DNA of 64,000 nt from Oscillospiraceae bacterium (GTDB lineage Bacteria; Bacillota; Clostridia; Oscillospirales; Ruminococcaceae). Within the stretch, counting starts at the first letter, position 1. Each line of letters starts with the position of its first letter. Of this stretch, positions 835-37,622 are shown piece after piece. Made by a program: the position numbers and the translations under genes. The stretch is taken from the NCBI GenBank assembly GCA_031280965.1, contig JAITFZ010000029.1, positions 1-64,000 on the forward strand, given 5' to 3'. A model generated the notes under the pieces. The model was not told where the DNA came from. It made no database searches and saw nothing but the letters and a program-made list of their open reading frames with translations.

Positions 835-3800
835 ATGAAATATTCAATCGGACTCGATATAGGAATTACATCGGTTGGCTTTGCAATTATGGAGCTTGAC
901 GAAGACGATATACCTTGCCGTATTGCTACAATGGGTTCACGTATATTTGATGCACCCGAAAATCCGAAAGATGGTGCTTCGCTTGCTTTACCCCGCAGAG
1001 AGGCACGGGGAATCCGCCGTTGCACAAGAAGACGGCGGCACCGCAAGAAAAGAATCAAAAACCTGATTGTTTCACAAAGTTTGCTTTCAAAAGAGGAATT
1101 AAATAGTTTATATGCAGGAGAAAATCCCGATGTATATAAACTTAGGGTCGATGCTCTTGACGGATTGCTAACAAACAACGAGCTTGCTCGTGTGCTGATT
1201 CATCTTGCTCAAAGGCGTGGCTTTAAGTCTAATCGGAAAAATGAAGCTGAACCCAAAGACTCAAAAGGGTTACTGAAAGCATTAGAAGTAAATGCAGATG
1301 AACTATCAAAATACAGGACAGTCGGGGAAATGCTATATAACCGCGAAAGCAAGCGGAATAAACCCGAAGATTACTCAAATACTGTATTGCGTTCAGATGT
1401 CCTCAAAGAAGCTCATATGATTTTTGAGAAACAGCGTAGTCTCGGGAATAATATATGTGATGAAAAGTTTGAGAATAATTATTATGATATTTTATCAAGT
1501 CAGCGTTCCTTTGATGAGGGACCAGGCGGTGATAGTCCTTACAAAGTGGATTTTTACAAATATATGGTTGGAGATTGTACACTCGAAGGAGAAAAGGAAA
1601 AGCGTGCCGCAAAAGCGACTTATTCGTTTGAATATTTTAATTTGCTTCAGAAAATAAATCATATTCGGCTTGAAACAAGCGGTCAATCAAGAGCGTTGTT
1701 TGCTGATGAACAGCGGATAATTATAAACAAAGCACATGACTCGCCATCTAAAATAACTGCCGTTTCGTTACGAAAGCTACTTAGTCTGCCTGAAGATGCC
1801 GAAGTTAATTTCAGAGATTATACACCTTTAAAAGCTTTTCACGAAATGCGAAAAGCATTGAAAAGCGTAACAGATATTAAATATATCAACACTGCTTTGC
1901 GGAATCAAATCGGTCATATATTTACTTACGAAAAAACAGATGAGAATATAGAAACAGCTTTGAAGAAGACTTCGTTAAATTTTGGCGAAATAAACGCTCT
2001 TATAAAAAATATAAAAAATATAAAAAATTTCAAAGGAAACGGGCATTTATCATTAATCGCACTTGATAAATTAATTCCTCATTTAGAAAAAGGATTTACT
2101 TATTATGATGCTTGTAAAGAAGCAGGTTATAATTTAAAGAGCAATGAAGATGCTACACCAAAAAAACTAATTGAATTGAAACACCTTGCAAAGAAAACCG
2201 AAAACACCATTACAAGCCCGGTTGCTCGCCGTGCTTTGTCGCAATGTGCCAAAGTCATAAATGCTATAATTCGTGAAATTGGGACAAGTCCTGTTTATAT
2301 CAACATTGAACTTGCTCGTGAAATGTCAAACAATTTCGATGAGCGAATGAAAACCGATAAAGATATGAAAGAAAATCAAGCAAAAAACGAGAGAATTAAA
2401 GAAAAAATCAAGGAATACGGTATTAATAATCCTACCGGACTTGATATTGTTAAGATGAAGTTATACGAGGAACAAAGCGGAATATGCCCGTATTCGCTTA
2501 TTCAAATGGATATATCGCAGTTATTTGACCCGGGTTATGCTGATATAGACCATATAATGCCGTATAGCGAATCGTTTGATGATTCTTATAAAAACAAGAT
2601 TTTAGTGCGAACAGAAGAAAACCGCCAAAAAGGTGACCGCTTGCCTTTGCATTACTTAAAAGGTGAAAAACAAGATAAATTCATCGTTTGGGTGAATAAC
2701 TCTCATCTTACAAAAAACAAGAAGCAGAACTTATTATGCGAAAAAATCCCCGAAGGCTTTAAGGAACGCAATCTACAAGATACTAAGACTATATCGAGTT
2801 TTATGTATAACTATCTCACAAACAACCTTACGTTCGCTGATTTTTCAACCGACCGTAAACGTCATGTTATGGCTGTAAACGGTGCAGTTACATCTATGCT
2901 TCGTAAGCGTTGGGGATTGAATAAAATCCGCGAAGACGGTGACTTGCACCACGCACTTGATGCGGCGGTGATTGCTTGCGTAACACAGGGTAACATCAGT
3001 ATGCTTACAAAACTTGAAAAATATTATATCAAAAAGGAAAATTATTATATTGACAGAAAAACAGGCGAAGCAGTGGAAAAAGATTTTCCACAGCCTTATG
3101 ATTACGGAAACAAGAGAAGTTTCAGCAATGAAATAGCGGCACGGCTTTCAAATAATCCACAAAAAACACTCAGAGAATTAAACTATCCGACTTATAGTTA
3201 TTATACGCTTGAAAAAATTAATCCTGTATTTGTATCAAGGATGCCGAATCGCAAAGTCAGCGGTGCAGCTCACAAGGAAACCATTAAAGGTATCGGTGAA
3301 AATAACTCTCAAATCAAGAAAGTGCCGCTGTCTGCACTCAAACTCGATAAAAACGGTGAAATAGACGGATATTACAATCCTAATGATGACCGCCTACTTT
3401 ATAATGCACTCAAAGAACGATTAGCCGAATTTGGCGGCAAAGGCGAAAAAGCATTTGATGAACCTTTTTATAAACCCAAGAGCAACGGTACACCCGGACC
3501 GATTGTTAAAAAAGTGAAAATCGAGGAAAAAAGCACATTAAACGTATTAGTTCACGATAAGACGGGTTCAGCAGACAACGGCAGCATGATTAGGGTTGAT
3601 GTGTTTTACGTGAATGGTGACGGATATTATCTTGTTCCGATTTATGTTGCAGATGTTGTAAAGGGAAAACTTCCAAATAAAGCAATTATAGCTAACAAGT
3701 CTTATGTAGACTGGAAAGAAATGAGCGATGATGATTTTATCTTCTCGCTTTATCCGAATGATTTGGTCTATATTGAACATAAAAAGGGTCTGACCTTTAG

Positions 3801-4041
3801 CAGAGTTAATGACAAAAGCTCACTGCCCCAAAAATTAGATAAGAAAAGCGAATATGTGTATTATAAAAAAACTGGAATATCAACCGGTTCAATAACAATT
3901 ATTAATCATGACAATAGTTATTTCATACCGAGCCTTGGTGTTAAATCGTTATTAAAATTCGAGAAATGGCAGGTTGATGTTTTGGGAAACAAGACCAAGG
4001 TTGTACATGAACCGCGATTAGGATTCGATAAGGAGGGGTGA
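835..4041 (+). CDS. cas9: CRISPR-associated endonuclease Cas9, type II-C, 1068 aa
   Basis: RuvC-I GLDIGITSVGFA, Arg-rich bridge helix RRCTRRRRHRKKRIK, RuvC-II YINIELAREMSNN, HNH DIDHIMPYSESFDDSYKNKILV, RuvC-III HHALDAAVIACVT; SD caggag. Confidence 0.97.
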   Translation: MKYSIGLDIGITSVGFAIMELDEDDIPCRIATMGSRIFDAPENPKDGASLALPRREARGIRRCTRRRRHRKKRIKNLIVSQSLLSKEELNSLYAGENPDVYKLRVDALDGLLTNNELARVLIHLAQRRGFKSNRKNEAEPKDSKGLLKALEVNADELSKYRTVGEMLYNRESKRNKPEDYSNTVLRSDVLKEAHMIFEKQRSLGNNICDEKFENNYYDILSSQRSFDEGPGGDSPYKVDFYKYMVGDCTLEGEKEKRAAKATYSFEYFNLLQKINHIRLETSGQSRALFADEQRIIINKAHDSPSKITAVSLRKLLSLPEDAEVNFRDYTPLKAFHEMRKALKSVTDIKYINTALRNQIGHIFTYEKTDENIETALKKTSLNFGEINALIKNIKNIKNFKGNGHLSLIALDKLIPHLEKGFTYYDACKEAGYNLKSNEDATPKKLIELKHLAKKTENTITSPVARRALSQCAKVINAIIREIGTSPVYINIELAREMSNNFDERMKTDKDMKENQAKNERIKEKIKEYGINNPTGLDIVKMKLYEEQSGICPYSLIQMDISQLFDPGYADIDHIMPYSESFDDSYKNKILVRTEENRQKGDRLPLHYLKGEKQDKFIVWVNNSHLTKNKKQNLLCEKIPEGFKERNLQDTKTISSFMYNYLTNNLTFADFSTDRKRHVMAVNGAVTSMLRKRWGLNKIREDGDLHHALDAAVIACVTQGNISMLTKLEKYYIKKENYYIDRKTGEAVEKDFPQPYDYGNKRSFSNEIAARLSNNPQKTLRELNYPTYSYYTLEKINPVFVSRMPNRKVSGAAHKETIKGIGENNSQIKKVPLSALKLDKNGEIDGYYNPNDDRLLYNALKERLAEFGGKGEKAFDEPFYKPKSNGTPGPIVKKVKIEEKSTLNVLVHDKTGSADNGSMIRVDVFYVNGDGYYLVPIYVADVVKGKLPNKAIIANKSYVDWKEMSDDDFIFSLYPNDLVYIEHKKGLTFSRVNDKSSLPQKLDKKSEYVYYKKTGISTGSITIINHDNSYFIPSLGVKSLLKFEKWQVDVLGNKTKVVHEPRLGFDKEG

Positions 4042-31402: not shown

Positions 31403-32467
31403 ATGTCACGACACTATTTTGCGGGTTCGAACACCCCAACCGGCTTTTTCAGCTTTTATTCCGATATAATACAATTCGGCGACACCGAAAGGAAAATCTA
31501 CATAAAAGGCGGCTCCGGCACAGGCAAAAGCACACTCATGAGAAAAACCGCAGGGATTTTTGAAAAAAAGGGCAGGGAGGTTGAATACTTTCATTGCTCG
31601 AATGACGCGAACAGCCTTGACGGGGTCGGTGTTGCCGAGCTTGGAATTGCCGTGGTTGACGGAAGCAATCCGCATCCTGATGACCCTCAACTCCCCTGTG
31701 CAAAAGACGAGATTTTCAACGCTTCGGACTTCCTTGACAAGGCATATCTGCGTGAGAATAAAGATTATTTAACAGAGTTGCTGGCGGAGAAAAAAGTGCT
31801 TTACGAGCGGGCTTACGGCTATTTGAGCAGTGCGAATGAAATTTACCGCCTGAACGAAAGCATTTATGAAAGCGCGCAGAGCGCAGATGCGTTGAACGGG
31901 CTTGTGCTTGAAATACTGCGGGTTTTTGAAGAAGAAAAGCAGAATAACGGCAGACTGCATAACAGGCGGCTTTTCGCTACGGCAATCACGCCCGAAGGTG
32001 TGAAAAGCCTTATTGAGTCCGCGTTAAAAGCGGAAAAAACCTACATTTTAAAAGGGCAGGGCGCAATGGGAATAACAGAAATGTTAGATACTGTGCAAAG
32101 AAGCGCAAACCTGCATGGCTTAGAAACCATAAGCTTCAAAAGTCCGCTCAATCCTAAAAAAACCGAACATCTTTATATTCCCGCGTATGATATTGCGTTC
32201 ATAACTTCCAACCGTTTTCATGAAACCACCGCCGAAGCGGATGCAATCAGTTTCAGGGAGTTTTTGAACACATCAGTGCTTGAAAAATACAGCAGTCAGT
32301 TAAGTTACAACGACGGCATATTCGACGAACTGCTGAAGAAGGCAATCGGCACGATGGCGGCGGCGAAAGGCATACATGTGAAAATCGAAGCAATTTATAT
32401 AGAGGGGATGGACTTTAAGAGAATGCACAGGGCTTATGATAAGATTTTGGAGGAGATGCTCGCATAG
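31403..32467 (+). CDS. P-loop ATPase (PRK06851-like)
   Basis: Walker A IKGGSGTGKSTLMRK; NTPTGFFSFYSDII N-terminus. Confidence 0.75.
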   Translation: MSRHYFAGSNTPTGFFSFYSDIIQFGDTERKIYIKGGSGTGKSTLMRKTAGIFEKKGREVEYFHCSNDANSLDGVGVAELGIAVVDGSNPHPDDPQLPCAKDEIFNASDFLDKAYLRENKDYLTELLAEKKVLYERAYGYLSSANEIYRLNESIYESAQSADALNGLVLEILRVFEEEKQNNGRLHNRRLFATAITPEGVKSLIESALKAEKTYILKGQGAMGITEMLDTVQRSANLHGLETISFKSPLNPKKTEHLYIPAYDIAFITSNRFHETTAEADAISFREFLNTSVLEKYSSQLSYNDGIFDELLKKAIGTMAAAKGIHVKIEAIYIEGMDFKRMHRAYDKILEEMLA

Positions 32468-33475: not shown

Positions 33476-33630
33476 ACATGTAATCCTTTCTTTTTATTAT
33501 CATCATGTAATATCTATGAGGACTTGGCTTTTTTTATGCCGTATAAACTTCTTGCAAAAACCTTTATTTTGTGATACAATAGTAAGGGTACGGAATATGC
33601 GTCCGTTAAAAAGAAGAAGAGGAACGAATT

Positions 33631-34647
33631 ATGGCGAAAAAACGGGTTGCGGTTTTATTCGGGGGGGCAAGTCAGGATTATGCGGCTTCATTGCAATCGG
33701 CTTACTCTGTGCTTTGCGTATTATCTAAAGAAAAATATGACATAATCCCCATAGGAATAACAAGAGCGGGGCGATGGCTTTTCTTTCCGGGCGACTATAA
33801 CGAGATTCCGAGCGGCGCGTGGGAGCAAAATGCAGACTGCTGTTCCGCAATTATCAGTCCCGACCCGCATCACGGCGGCATATTAAAAATACTTGACGAC
33901 GGACACTTCACCCGCCAAAATATAGACGTGATTTTTCCGGTACTGCACGGAAAATACGGCGAGTGTGGGCGAATTCAGGCGTTGTGCCGGCTTTCGGGCG
34001 TACCCTTTGTCGGTAGCGGCTTTGAAGCCGCAAACGCATGCAGTGACCGTATGCTGACTTATCTTCTGCTTGAGAGGGCGGGGATAAAAGTGCCGAAATA
34101 CTTTTACGTTGAACGCGCATGGCTTGACGATATTGACTCGCTGTTCCCGCTTATAGAAGCCGAGATTGAGTACCCCATGTATGTCAAAGCCTCAAACTGT
34201 AGTAACTCAATCGGAGCAAACTATGCCGCTAACCGCGAAGAATTGCGGCAGTCGATTAAACTCGCGGCTACACATCATCACAAGGTTTTGATTGAGCAGT
34301 GTCTTTCGGGCAGAGAGTTTGAATGTGCGGTAACAGGCGGCTCTTACAAGCTGAAAGCGTCTGTGACGGGTGAAGTAAAAACCTCGAGAAAATCAGAATT
34401 CGGCGTAGTCAAGCTTAAAAAATCCCTGCAAACCGAAATTCAGGAAACCGCGAAAGCCGCGTTTGTAGCGCTCGGGTGCAAGAACTTTGCACGGTTTAGC
34501 TTTACGCTTGTCGGTGACGAGCTTTATTTAAGAAAAGCCGGCGCAATGCCGGGATTTACGGAGGTCGGGGTTTTTCCGGCACTTATAATGGAGAGCGGCA
34601 CGAGTTATGCGGAAATGTTGGATGAAATTATAGAGTCGGTGCTTTAG
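33631..34647 (+). CDS. D-alanine-D-alanine ligase homologue with degenerate active site
   Basis: VAVLFGGASQDYAASLQSAYSV, VLHGKYGECGRIQALCRLSGVPFVGSG, ATP-grasp fold; RFSFTLVGDELYLRKAGAMPGFT replaces canonical R-x-D...LEANTxPGMT. Confidence 0.85.
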   Translation: MAKKRVAVLFGGASQDYAASLQSAYSVLCVLSKEKYDIIPIGITRAGRWLFFPGDYNEIPSGAWEQNADCCSAIISPDPHHGGILKILDDGHFTRQNIDVIFPVLHGKYGECGRIQALCRLSGVPFVGSGFEAANACSDRMLTYLLLERAGIKVPKYFYVERAWLDDIDSLFPLIEAEIEYPMYVKASNCSNSIGANYAANREELRQSIKLAATHHHKVLIEQCLSGREFECAVTGGSYKLKASVTGEVKTSRKSEFGVVKLKKSLQTEIQETAKAAFVALGCKNFARFSFTLVGDELYLRKAGAMPGFTEVGVFPALIMESGTSYAEMLDEIIESVL

Positions 34648-34687: not shown

Positions 34688-35485
34688 GTGAATAATTCTG
34701 CTGTCCGGTTAGACGGAAAAAAGATTTTAATTACCGGTGTAAGCCGTCCAATCGGTATTGGTGCAACACTTGCCAAGAGATTAGCCGAAGCAGGGGCAAT
34801 CATTGCAATTCACGGGTTTTCGGACTATGATATGACTGTAGGCGTGAGTAAATCCGCTATGGCGAACGGCACGGAAATATTGGCAAAGCAATCAGTTGAT
34901 TCCGGATTAAATATAACCGCAATCACGACCGGGGATTTAATGATACCGGGCGTTGCTGAAAAGGTTGTTGAGGAAGCGGCAGAAAAGTTAGGCGGGCTTG
35001 ACGGATTGGTTCTGAATCACGCTTACTCAACTTACGGCGAAATGGGCGACTGGACACCGGAGCATATAGACCCGCACTTACTTGTAAATGTGCGTGCTTC
35101 AATGATGATGATACAGGCATTTGTTAATCAGGCAGACATCACAAAAGAAAACGCAATTACATTGTTTACAAGCGGTCAGTATTTAGGTCCGATGATAAAT
35201 GAAATTGCATATAGCGTGTCAAAAGAAGCGATTATTTGTTTATGCAGACAAACTTCTTACCTGCTCGCTGATAAAAATATTCGTGTGAATTGCATAAACC
35301 CCGGACCCGTTGATACAGGTTATTGCTTTGATGAAGCGCATGAAGCTGTTGCAAAAATGTTTCCGTCGGGGCGTTGGGGGACGCCTGATGATACTGCTGA
35401 TTTGTTGTTGTTTTTGCACAGCGGATACGCTAAATGGATTACCGGTCAGGTTATAGCCGGCGAGGGTGGTTTTAATCGCTATTGA
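34688..35485 (+). CDS. Short-chain dehydrogenase/reductase
   Basis: KKILITGVSRPIGIGATLAKRLAEAGA...LVLNHAYS...YSVSKEA...INPGPVDTG. Confidence 0.87.
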   Translation: MNNSAVRLDGKKILITGVSRPIGIGATLAKRLAEAGAIIAIHGFSDYDMTVGVSKSAMANGTEILAKQSVDSGLNITAITTGDLMIPGVAEKVVEEAAEKLGGLDGLVLNHAYSTYGEMGDWTPEHIDPHLLVNVRASMMMIQAFVNQADITKENAITLFTSGQYLGPMINEIAYSVSKEAIICLCRQTSYLLADKNIRVNCINPGPVDTGYCFDEAHEAVAKMFPSGRWGTPDDTADLLLFLHSGYAKWITGQVIAGEGGFNRY

Positions 35486-35522
35486 GGGTTATAACGAACC
35501 TATACAACAGAAAGGAACAAAC

Positions 35523-35951
35523 ATGGAAAAAAACGTATGCATAGACATTAAAAGTACGCAATTTGCTGAAGACGAGCGTGATGTAACAGAACTTTTCACC
35601 TACGGCAGACTTAAACGCGGGCGCGAACGAAATAAGTACAAGATTATATATGAGGAAAGCGAGGCGACCGGCTTCGGCGGAAATACCGTGACGCTTGATA
35701 TAGCGGGTAATGACATGGTTACGCTTTACCGCTCGGGTGATGCGCTGAGCAATCTTGTGATTGAAAAGGGCAAGAAGCATCATTGCCATTACGGTACGCC
35801 GTTCGGCGACTTCATGGTGGGTGTAACCGCTGATGAAATCCGCTCCGAACTCAGCGATAAAGGAGGTAATTTATACCTTAAATACACTATCGACATAAAT
35901 TCAAGTTATATGTCTGAAACGGAAATGCACATTAATATAAAGGAAGTTTAG
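35523..35951 (+). CDS. DUF1934 (YwiB-like) protein
   Basis: Located directly upstream of argS; YGRLKRGRERNKYKIIYEESEATGFGGNTVTLDIAGNDMVTLYRSG. Confidence 0.78.
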   Translation: MEKNVCIDIKSTQFAEDERDVTELFTYGRLKRGRERNKYKIIYEESEATGFGGNTVTLDIAGNDMVTLYRSGDALSNLVIEKGKKHHCHYGTPFGDFMVGVTADEIRSELSDKGGNLYLKYTIDINSSYMSETEMHINIKEV

Positions 35952-35957
35952 GAATTT

Positions 35958-37622
35958 ATGCAAAACATGACAGAATACGCAAAACAGCAAATAAAGAATT
36001 TAATTTCAGGAGCATTGGAAATAGAATCGCCGGCTTTACTCCCTGCCGGTGTAATTGTTGAAGTTCCCGCTAATCCCGCAAACGGCGACCTTTCCTGCAA
36101 TGCCGCTATGATTCTCGCAAAAAGCCAGAAAAAGAATCCGAGAGAAGTTGCGGCAAAAATAATTGAAAGCATAAGGCTTGATGAAGCTGTTTTCAGCCGC
36201 TGTGAAGTTGCGGGTCCCGGCTTTCTTAATTTCTATTTGGCTTCGGGCTGGTATACAAAGGCTGTGAAGTTCATAACAGAGCAGAAAGAAGATTACGGGA
36301 AAATTGATTTCGGGATAGGGAAGCGCGTTCTGATTGAATTTGTTTCGGCAAATCCTACAGGTCCCATGCACATAGGAAACGCACGCGGCGGCGCACTCGG
36401 CGACTGTCTTGCTTCTGTAATGGAGCGGGCGGGGTATTATGTGGAGCGGGAGTTTTATGTAAATGATGCAGGCAATCAGGTTAACAAGCTCGGTTTAAGT
36501 CTTGACATACGTTATCGTCAGTTGCTCGGCTCTCCGGTTGAAATGCCGGAAGACAGCTATCACGGTGATGATATAATTGAACACGCGAAGAATTATATTG
36601 CGAAACACGGCGACAAGTTGCTTTTAGCGACAGAAGAAGAGCGCAGAACCGAACTTGCCGATTATGCACTTCCTTTAAATATACAGGCGTTAGAATCCGA
36701 CCTCGCAAAGTACAGAATTACGTACAACACATGGTTTAAAGAAAGCGCGTTACATGAGAGCGATGCACCTGCGAAAATCGTGGAATTATTAAAGGAAAAA
36801 GGTCATACGTATGAGCGGGACGGCGCGGTGTGGCTTAAATCCACGGAGTTCGGTGACGAAAAGGACAGGGTTTTAGTCAGAAGCAATGGTATTCCGACTT
36901 ATTTGGTGCCGGACATTGCTTATCATTATAATAAGTTAGTTGAGCGAAATTTCGATATTGCAATTGATATTCTCGGCGCAGACCACCACGGCTACATTCC
37001 GCGCATGAATGCGGCTTTGGCGGCGCTCGGAATTGACACTTCAAGGTTAAAAGTAATAATTTATCAGATGGTGCGGTTGCTTCGGGGCGGGGAAGCGGTG
37101 AAATTATCCAAACGTTCCGGAAAGGCAATCACGCTCGCGACCCTGCTTGATGAAGTCCCGCTTGATGCGGCGCGGTTTTTCTTTAATCTGCGCGATTCAA
37201 ACACGCACATAGATTTTGACCTTGACCTGGCAATTGAGGAAAGCAACAAGAATCCTGTTTATTACGTCCAATACTCATATGCACGGATTTGCAGTATAAT
37301 TCGTAAACTCGCAGACGAGGGCATAACCTGTACTTTTCCTGAAAATCTTATTTTCACGGAAAAATTTGAGTCAGAACTTATAAAGAAAGCTTCCGAATTA
37401 CCCGCGGAAACCGAAAAAGCCGCACAGGAACTTAATCCGTCGCGAATCACAAGATTTGTTTTGGAACTGGCGCAAACCTTCAATAAATTTTATGAAACTT
37501 GCAGAATCAAAGGCGAGGAAGATACTGTTTTGCAGTCGCGCCTGACGCTCTGCCATGCGGTAAAAATCACACTCAAAAACGCATTGGAAATTCTCAAAGT
37601 AGACGCACCGGAGAAGATGTAA
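35958..37622 (+). CDS. argS: Arginyl-tRNA synthetase
   Basis: VEFVSANPTGPMHIGNARGGALGD...REFYVNDAGNQ...VKLSKRSGKAITL. Confidence 0.96.
   Translation: MQNMTEYAKQQIKNLISGALEIESPALLPAGVIVEVPANPANGDLSCNAAMILAKSQKKNPREVAAKIIESIRLDEAVFSRCEVAGPGFLNFYLASGWYTKAVKFITEQKEDYGKIDFGIGKRVLIEFVSANPTGPMHIGNARGGALGDCLASVMERAGYYVEREFYVNDAGNQVNKLGLSLDIRYRQLLGSPVEMPEDSYHGDDIIEHAKNYIAKHGDKLLLATEEERRTELADYALPLNIQALESDLAKYRITYNTWFKESALHESDAPAKIVELLKEKGHTYERDGAVWLKSTEFGDEKDRVLVRSNGIPTYLVPDIAYHYNKLVERNFDIAIDILGADHHGYIPRMNAALAALGIDTSRLKVIIYQMVRLLRGGEAVKLSKRSGKAITLATLLDEVPLDAARFFFNLRDSNTHIDFDLDLAIEESNKNPVYYVQYSYARICSIIRKLADEGITCTFPENLIFTEKFESELIKKASELPAETEKAAQELNPSRITRFVLELAQTFNKFYETCRIKGEEDTVLQSRLTLCHAVKITLKNALEILKVDAPEKM

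Follow-up and report, generated by a model that had tools for sequence, protein, structure and literature searches.

The window, a 64,000-nucleotide stretch of an Oscillospiraceae contig, encodes a homologue of D-Ala-D-Ala ligase (Ddl) that lacks the catalytic and metal-binding residues of that enzyme, and we propose, with a probability of roughly three in four, that it is a displaced ancestral Ddl retained as a non-catalytic protein with a binding, scaffold or regulatory role. The proposal is backed directly by the positional orthology of the gene, the loss of essential residues, the intact second Ddl in the same genome, purifying selection, and at least four separate losses within the family. 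Ddl is essential and is targeted by the antibiotic D-cycloserine.

A Ddl homologue without its catalytic residues

The window protein matches both Pfam halves of Ddl, Dala_Dala_lig_N and Dala_Dala_lig_C (E 7e-34 and 4e-27), and its AlphaFold model (pLDDT 87, pTM 0.84) has the VanG ligase 4fu0 as its best PDB match (TM 0.90), which places it in the D-Ala-D-Ala ligase fold. The solved structures nearest by sequence are likewise the VanG and VanA (1e4e) ligases. It is similar to such VanG-type and DdlA-type D-Ala-D-X ligases in fold, length, both Pfam domains and about 30% identity, but unlike them it is without the catalytic and metal-binding residues and scores below every Ddl/Van cut-off among the 25 NCBIfam families listed (TIGR01205, 204.8 bits against a cut-off of 245.65; PRK01966.1-4, 246.8 bits against 262).

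Residues were mapped with a MAFFT alignment to E. coli DdlB, the reference sequence of which agrees with PDB 1iov over its full length, and the numbering of lost and retained residues is that of DdlB. The changes in the window protein are E15D, D69C, K97R, S150N, D257S, E270K, N272G, and S281G, and the equivalents of K215 and Y216 are missing. Hence all three metal-ligand positions (D257, E270, and N272) are altered, to S290, K302, and G304, and the E15-S150-Y216 triad has become D, N, and a deletion. The motifs named in the sequence-only reading all lie in the protein (DYAAS at 16-20, GECG at 110-113, SNSIG at 191-195, RFSF at 288-291, and LRKAGAMPGFT at 300-310), and the alignment agrees with its S, K, and G for the metal ligands, with none of the DdlB ligands restored. 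To its list can be added the changes of K97 to R140, S150 to N192, and S281 to G313, together with the omega-loop deletion that takes K215 and Y216, which spans 10 residues relative to the nearest relatives and is also found in the independent MAG Th196P3bin104 (L057). In a Ddl described in the literature the equivalents of D257, E270, and N272 are part of the ATP/Mg site and those of R255 and S281 touch D-Ala-D-Ala (PMC6899670). As H63, K144, E180, E187, and R255 are retained, the window protein may still bind nucleotide; from the residues that are gone we infer that it would not ligate D-Ala.

The nearest relatives are encoded by the Oscillospiraceae MAGs Th196P3bin104, Lab288P3bin172, Emb289P3bin72, and Nt197P3bin86, which, going by their bin names, we take to be termite-gut genomes, probably of the 589-MAG higher-termite set (PMC7024585). 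All of the full same-genus orthologues examined are degenerate (32/32): every one of them has D at the E15 position and K, R or N at the E270 position, N272 is retained in G015 only, and D257, K144, S150, R255, and the omega loop are variable. A 33rd orthologue (G025), which ends at a contig end, also carries E15D. Because these changes at E15 and E270 occur in 32/32 orthologues and 22 canonical orthologues from the same family are invariant there, the residue losses are not due to chance or to a slip of alignment.

The reading frame is uninterrupted and is preceded by a Shine-Dalgarno sequence (Table 1), as the earlier reading had noted. Three promoter-like sites were found in the region, compared with 1.6 expected by chance, and the one listed in Table 1 has a counterpart of similar sequence and position in three close relatives out of four (Th196, G023, and G017; not G027). 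The short-chain dehydrogenase gene that lies between the ddl homologue and the DUF1934 gene is absent from that place in the relatives examined. An upstream ORF (31403-32467, + strand) encodes a P-loop protein (GGSGTGKST) with weak Pfam matches only (AAA_30, NPHP3_N). None of the neighbours indicates a specific partner.

Table 1. Features of the ddl-homologue region, in window coordinates.
Feature	Position	Strand	Basis or remark
Promoter-like site TTGCAA-17-TACAAT, TG preceding the -10	33552..33580	+	Motif scan
Shine-Dalgarno sequence GAAGAGGA	33616..33623	+	Core AGGA at 33620-33623, 7 nt 5' of the ATG; from sequence
Degenerate D-Ala-D-Ala ligase homologue P0001, 338 aa	33631..34647	+	ATG at 33631, stop ends at 34647, 338 codons; ORF, Pfam, alignment, model
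N-terminal domain, residues 1-139	33631..34047	+	As conserved as canonical Ddl
Codon of D16 (DdlB E15 position)	33676..33678	+	D in all 32 proteins from the genus
C-terminal catalytic domain, residues 229-338	34315..34644	+	Relaxed; identity comparison
Omega-loop deletion region, K215/Y216 gone	34384..34401	+	Model confidence lowest at residues 252-256
S290 codon (metal-ligand position D257)	34498..34500	+	Alignment
K302 codon (metal-ligand position E270)	34534..34536	+	K/R/N in 32/32 same-genus proteins
G304 codon (metal-ligand position N272)	34540..34542	+	Alignment
Short-chain dehydrogenase gene	34688..35485	+	Neighbour-ORF annotation
DUF1934 protein, conserved neighbour downstream	35520..35951	+	Locus comparison
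argS, conserved neighbour downstream	35958..37622	+	Locus comparison

A second, intact Ddl in the same genome and genus

A canonical ddl is present elsewhere in the genome (G000:C18:31571-32743), where it adjoins murF, recognised from reading the flanking ORF, and its product keeps all of the catalytic residues checked. The other PF07478 matches in this genome are weak and cover only part of the profile. The murF-linked canonical Ddl occurs in 34 of the 36 genomes of the genus and is intact in all 30 that were extracted. One of the two genomes without it, G033, has a canonical VanG-like copy instead. The other, G010, is the sole member of the genus with neither a murF-type nor a single-domain canonical Ddl; it encodes a 765-aa tandem double-Ddl (L197, G010:C20:18000-24000, ORF 1747-4041, + strand), the second half of which has the ligand motifs RVD and EVN.

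Selection and domain conservation

Many synonymous distances within the genus are saturated, and dN/dS is quoted from unsaturated pairs only: 0.022 (G029/G005), 0.036 (G032/G014), and 0.052 (G001/G008) in the genus, and 0.028, 0.028-0.059, and 0.027 in the degenerate lineages g54, g101, and g90, that is, about 0.02-0.06 across four degenerate lineages. The degenerate genes are not decaying, and there is strong purifying selection on the protein. The dN of the window protein versus its closest relatives is 0.094-0.129, and in three of these genome pairs the degenerate protein has a lower dN (0.096-0.129) than the intact murF-linked Ddl (0.150-0.166). Of the marks of a pseudoenzyme, the protein shows a clear relationship to an enzyme family together with missing essential residues, and its gene is kept by purifying selection.

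This selection is unevenly spread. The N-terminal part (residues 1-132) has the lowest dN of the three parts of the window protein (0.045-0.056 versus the closest relatives), and mean pairwise identity over the N-terminal, central, and C-terminal parts is 0.62/0.48/0.36 in the degenerate genus set, compared with 0.60/0.48/0.58 in canonical orthologues and 0.68/0.55/0.72 in the murF-type Ddl of the genus itself. Canonical orthologues were drawn from many genera and degenerate ones from a single genus, so it is the contrast between domains that is informative and not the absolute identities. Within the genus the N-terminal domain has stayed as well conserved as in active enzymes, and constraint on the catalytic domain has relaxed. 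Among the best-conserved stretches are residues 1-13, 40-52 (PIGITRAGRWLFF), and 105-117, and residues 53-78 are conserved more in the degenerate genus set than in canonical enzymes. The dimer contact of canonical Ddl includes the conserved equivalents of G70, G74, A92, and D96 (PMC6899670); when positions are transferred through the K104/K97 offset, G70 and D96 persist in the genus and G74 and A92 do not, which makes a simple Ddl-like homodimer less certain and suggests that partner contacts may have changed.

Evolutionary history and distribution in the family

The survey of the family is a sample in which all genomes are species representatives and many are MAGs, and a murF-type Ddl was called absent where there was no match at E 1e-80 or where the only matches were weaker ones of 30-39%. 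The orthologue of the window gene is fully canonical in 20 genomes of 17 genera, as are the G078 and G083 copies, and its locus is mostly ddl-murI-DUF1934-argS or ddl-DUF1934-argS. Canonical orthologues such as those of G153 and G239 are 42% identical to the window protein, lie at the same locus 5' of DUF1934-argS and are orthologous to it by position and tree; unlike it, they retain every catalytic residue. The degenerate genes occupy this same locus, ddl-(murI)-DUF1934-argS, which indicates that the old gene was altered in place, and a horizontally acquired odd paralogue is ruled out by the ancestral locus of the gene.

A murF-type Ddl is present in 12 of the 126 genera sampled and in none of the examined genomes with a canonical orthologue. 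In all seven genera that have both a murF-type Ddl and the old gene (g1, g43, g54, g80, g90, g101, and g107), the old copy is degenerate, with substitutions that differ between genera: E68A/G, E187K/R, E270K, and N272G/V in g43, H63Y, E180K, R255S, and E270Q in g54, and H63F, R255M, D257S, and G276R in g101. The genome G226 belongs to g101 yet has no murF-type Ddl, and its old copy is canonical. Four further genera with a murF-type Ddl (g64, g68, g124, and g150) gave no match to the old gene, which is accordingly not essential everywhere, and what matched in g61 was the murF-type gene, which lies at the end of a contig. Among 40 further genomes without a murF-type Ddl, 37 have a fully canonical orthologue, one has a canonical copy truncated before E15, and two have a degenerate one. 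At the genus level the old copy is degenerate in 7/7 genera with a murF-type Ddl versus 1/52 without (Fisher p 2e-8, uncorrected for kinship); an independent-pairs sign test, for which the pairs were too few, did not reach significance. The exception is g133 (L273 and L275, from G167 and G247), in which the old Ddl is degenerate with no murF-type match; its copies mostly retain the ATP-site residues and have lost H63, S150, R255, S281, and the omega loop.

A tree of 67 proteins requires five changes between the canonical and degenerate states, and the minimum is four once g133 and a further eight canonical genomes are included, the tree placement of the long branches g90 and g80 being less certain. 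A topology that unites every degenerate protein in a single clade is rejected (AU test, p-AU 0.00018), which rules out one ancient loss common to all degenerate lineages.

A link to the loss of murI is weak, since murI presence beside ddl does not match degeneracy: G153, G239, and G226 have a canonical ddl without an adjacent murI, and G114 (g80) has a degenerate one with murI. Glutamate racemase (TIGR00067) had no match over the cut-off in 28 genomes of the genus, and PF01177 had none in eight genus genomes or in G153, G226, G077, and G135. For D-amino-acid transaminase (TIGR01121), a possible source of the D-Glu of peptidoglycan, there was likewise no match over the cut-off in this genome and genus, a result that says little given that only one of 14 control genomes passes it.

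Proposed history and alternative explanations

Based on these data we put forward a probable history in which the starting point would be the ancestral, operon-borne Ddl of the family, of VanG/DdlA-like type. A second, murF-linked Ddl would take over as the D-Ala-D-Ala ligase, and the displaced old Ddl would then lose its catalytic residues and be kept as a non-catalytic protein. The sequence-only reading had suggested a candidate pseudoenzyme of regulatory or altered function, and with the ligands unrestored and a canonical Ddl elsewhere this is the best-supported reading; it now extends to purifying selection, fixation across the genus and recurrence in other genera, which lay beyond the view of that reading. 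Strong selection has kept the old gene in position, which makes a different function for the presumably inactive protein probable.

Any other explanation must accommodate the same pattern of selection. If the protein were still an enzyme, an ATP-grasp protein of changed chemistry or substrate with a different metal arrangement, strong selection at the protein level would be expected, as would the K144, E180, E187, and R255 that the window protein keeps and the ATP-site residues that g101 and g133 mostly retain. Within the genus, however, K144 is replaced by M, T, S, A or V, E187 is mostly gone and R255 is K, I, L or T in several members, no new common consensus has emerged at the variable metal-ligand positions, and the C-terminal domain evolves fastest, whereas a new enzyme would be expected to conserve its new active site; we therefore regard this reading as unlikely. 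It is extremely unlikely that the protein is an active D-Ala-D-Ala ligase with unusual ligands, a reading that the preserved fold and the partly conserved ATP site might favour, given the change of the three metal ligands to S, K, and G, the missing K215 and Y216, the scores under all NCBIfam Ddl/Van cut-offs listed and the intact Ddl in the genome.

That the reading frame is kept only for the expression signals of DUF1934-argS would explain its conserved position upstream of argS, but we consider this very unlikely: selection targets the amino-acid sequence, the window species has an extra gene before DUF1934, and four murF-type genera have no match to the old gene. A decaying pseudogene that is still unbroken would account for the many missing catalytic residues and the deleted omega loop and is nevertheless scarcely credible, with the ORF intact at all loci examined, an old, genus-wide retention and the low dN/dS of the unsaturated pairs, which rules out a recent pseudogene.

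For the retained non-catalytic protein that we favour, the job could be binding via the N-terminal domain, in which case the protein would most likely dock on or regulate a different cell-wall enzyme or act as a sensor of a D-Ala-type ligand; we make this assignment tentatively and at somewhat under even odds. This binding role may already have existed in the active ancestor.

Parallels and implications

There are parallels in other protein families. TTLL12 is an ATP-grasp homologue that is reported (PMC3520985) to be without the ligase activity of its family and is discussed there as a possible pseudoenzyme; it is eukaryotic and of another subfamily, and no close kinship with the window protein is claimed. 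In the yeast Dis3/RNase II pseudonucleases, catalysis is reported to have been lost repeatedly and the protein retained for binding (PMC8097288); these proteins are unrelated to Ddl, and the role they retain, RNA binding, is known. The open-access literature searched, the coverage of which was incomplete, yielded no account of a Ddl pseudoenzyme, and annotation by family name may label such degenerate proteins as D-Ala-D-Ala ligases.

A further-reaching reading is that a second role of the protein becomes visible because the old Ddl is often kept, though its catalysis is lost, once another ligase does the chemistry. It is about an even call that Ddl in this family has a second, non-catalytic role in its N-terminal domain, revealed by at least four separate losses of catalysis with frequent retention of the protein. 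Ddl is treated as a pure catalyst, and its repeated conversion into a conserved protein stripped of catalytic residues suggests a hidden, directly testable non-catalytic function.
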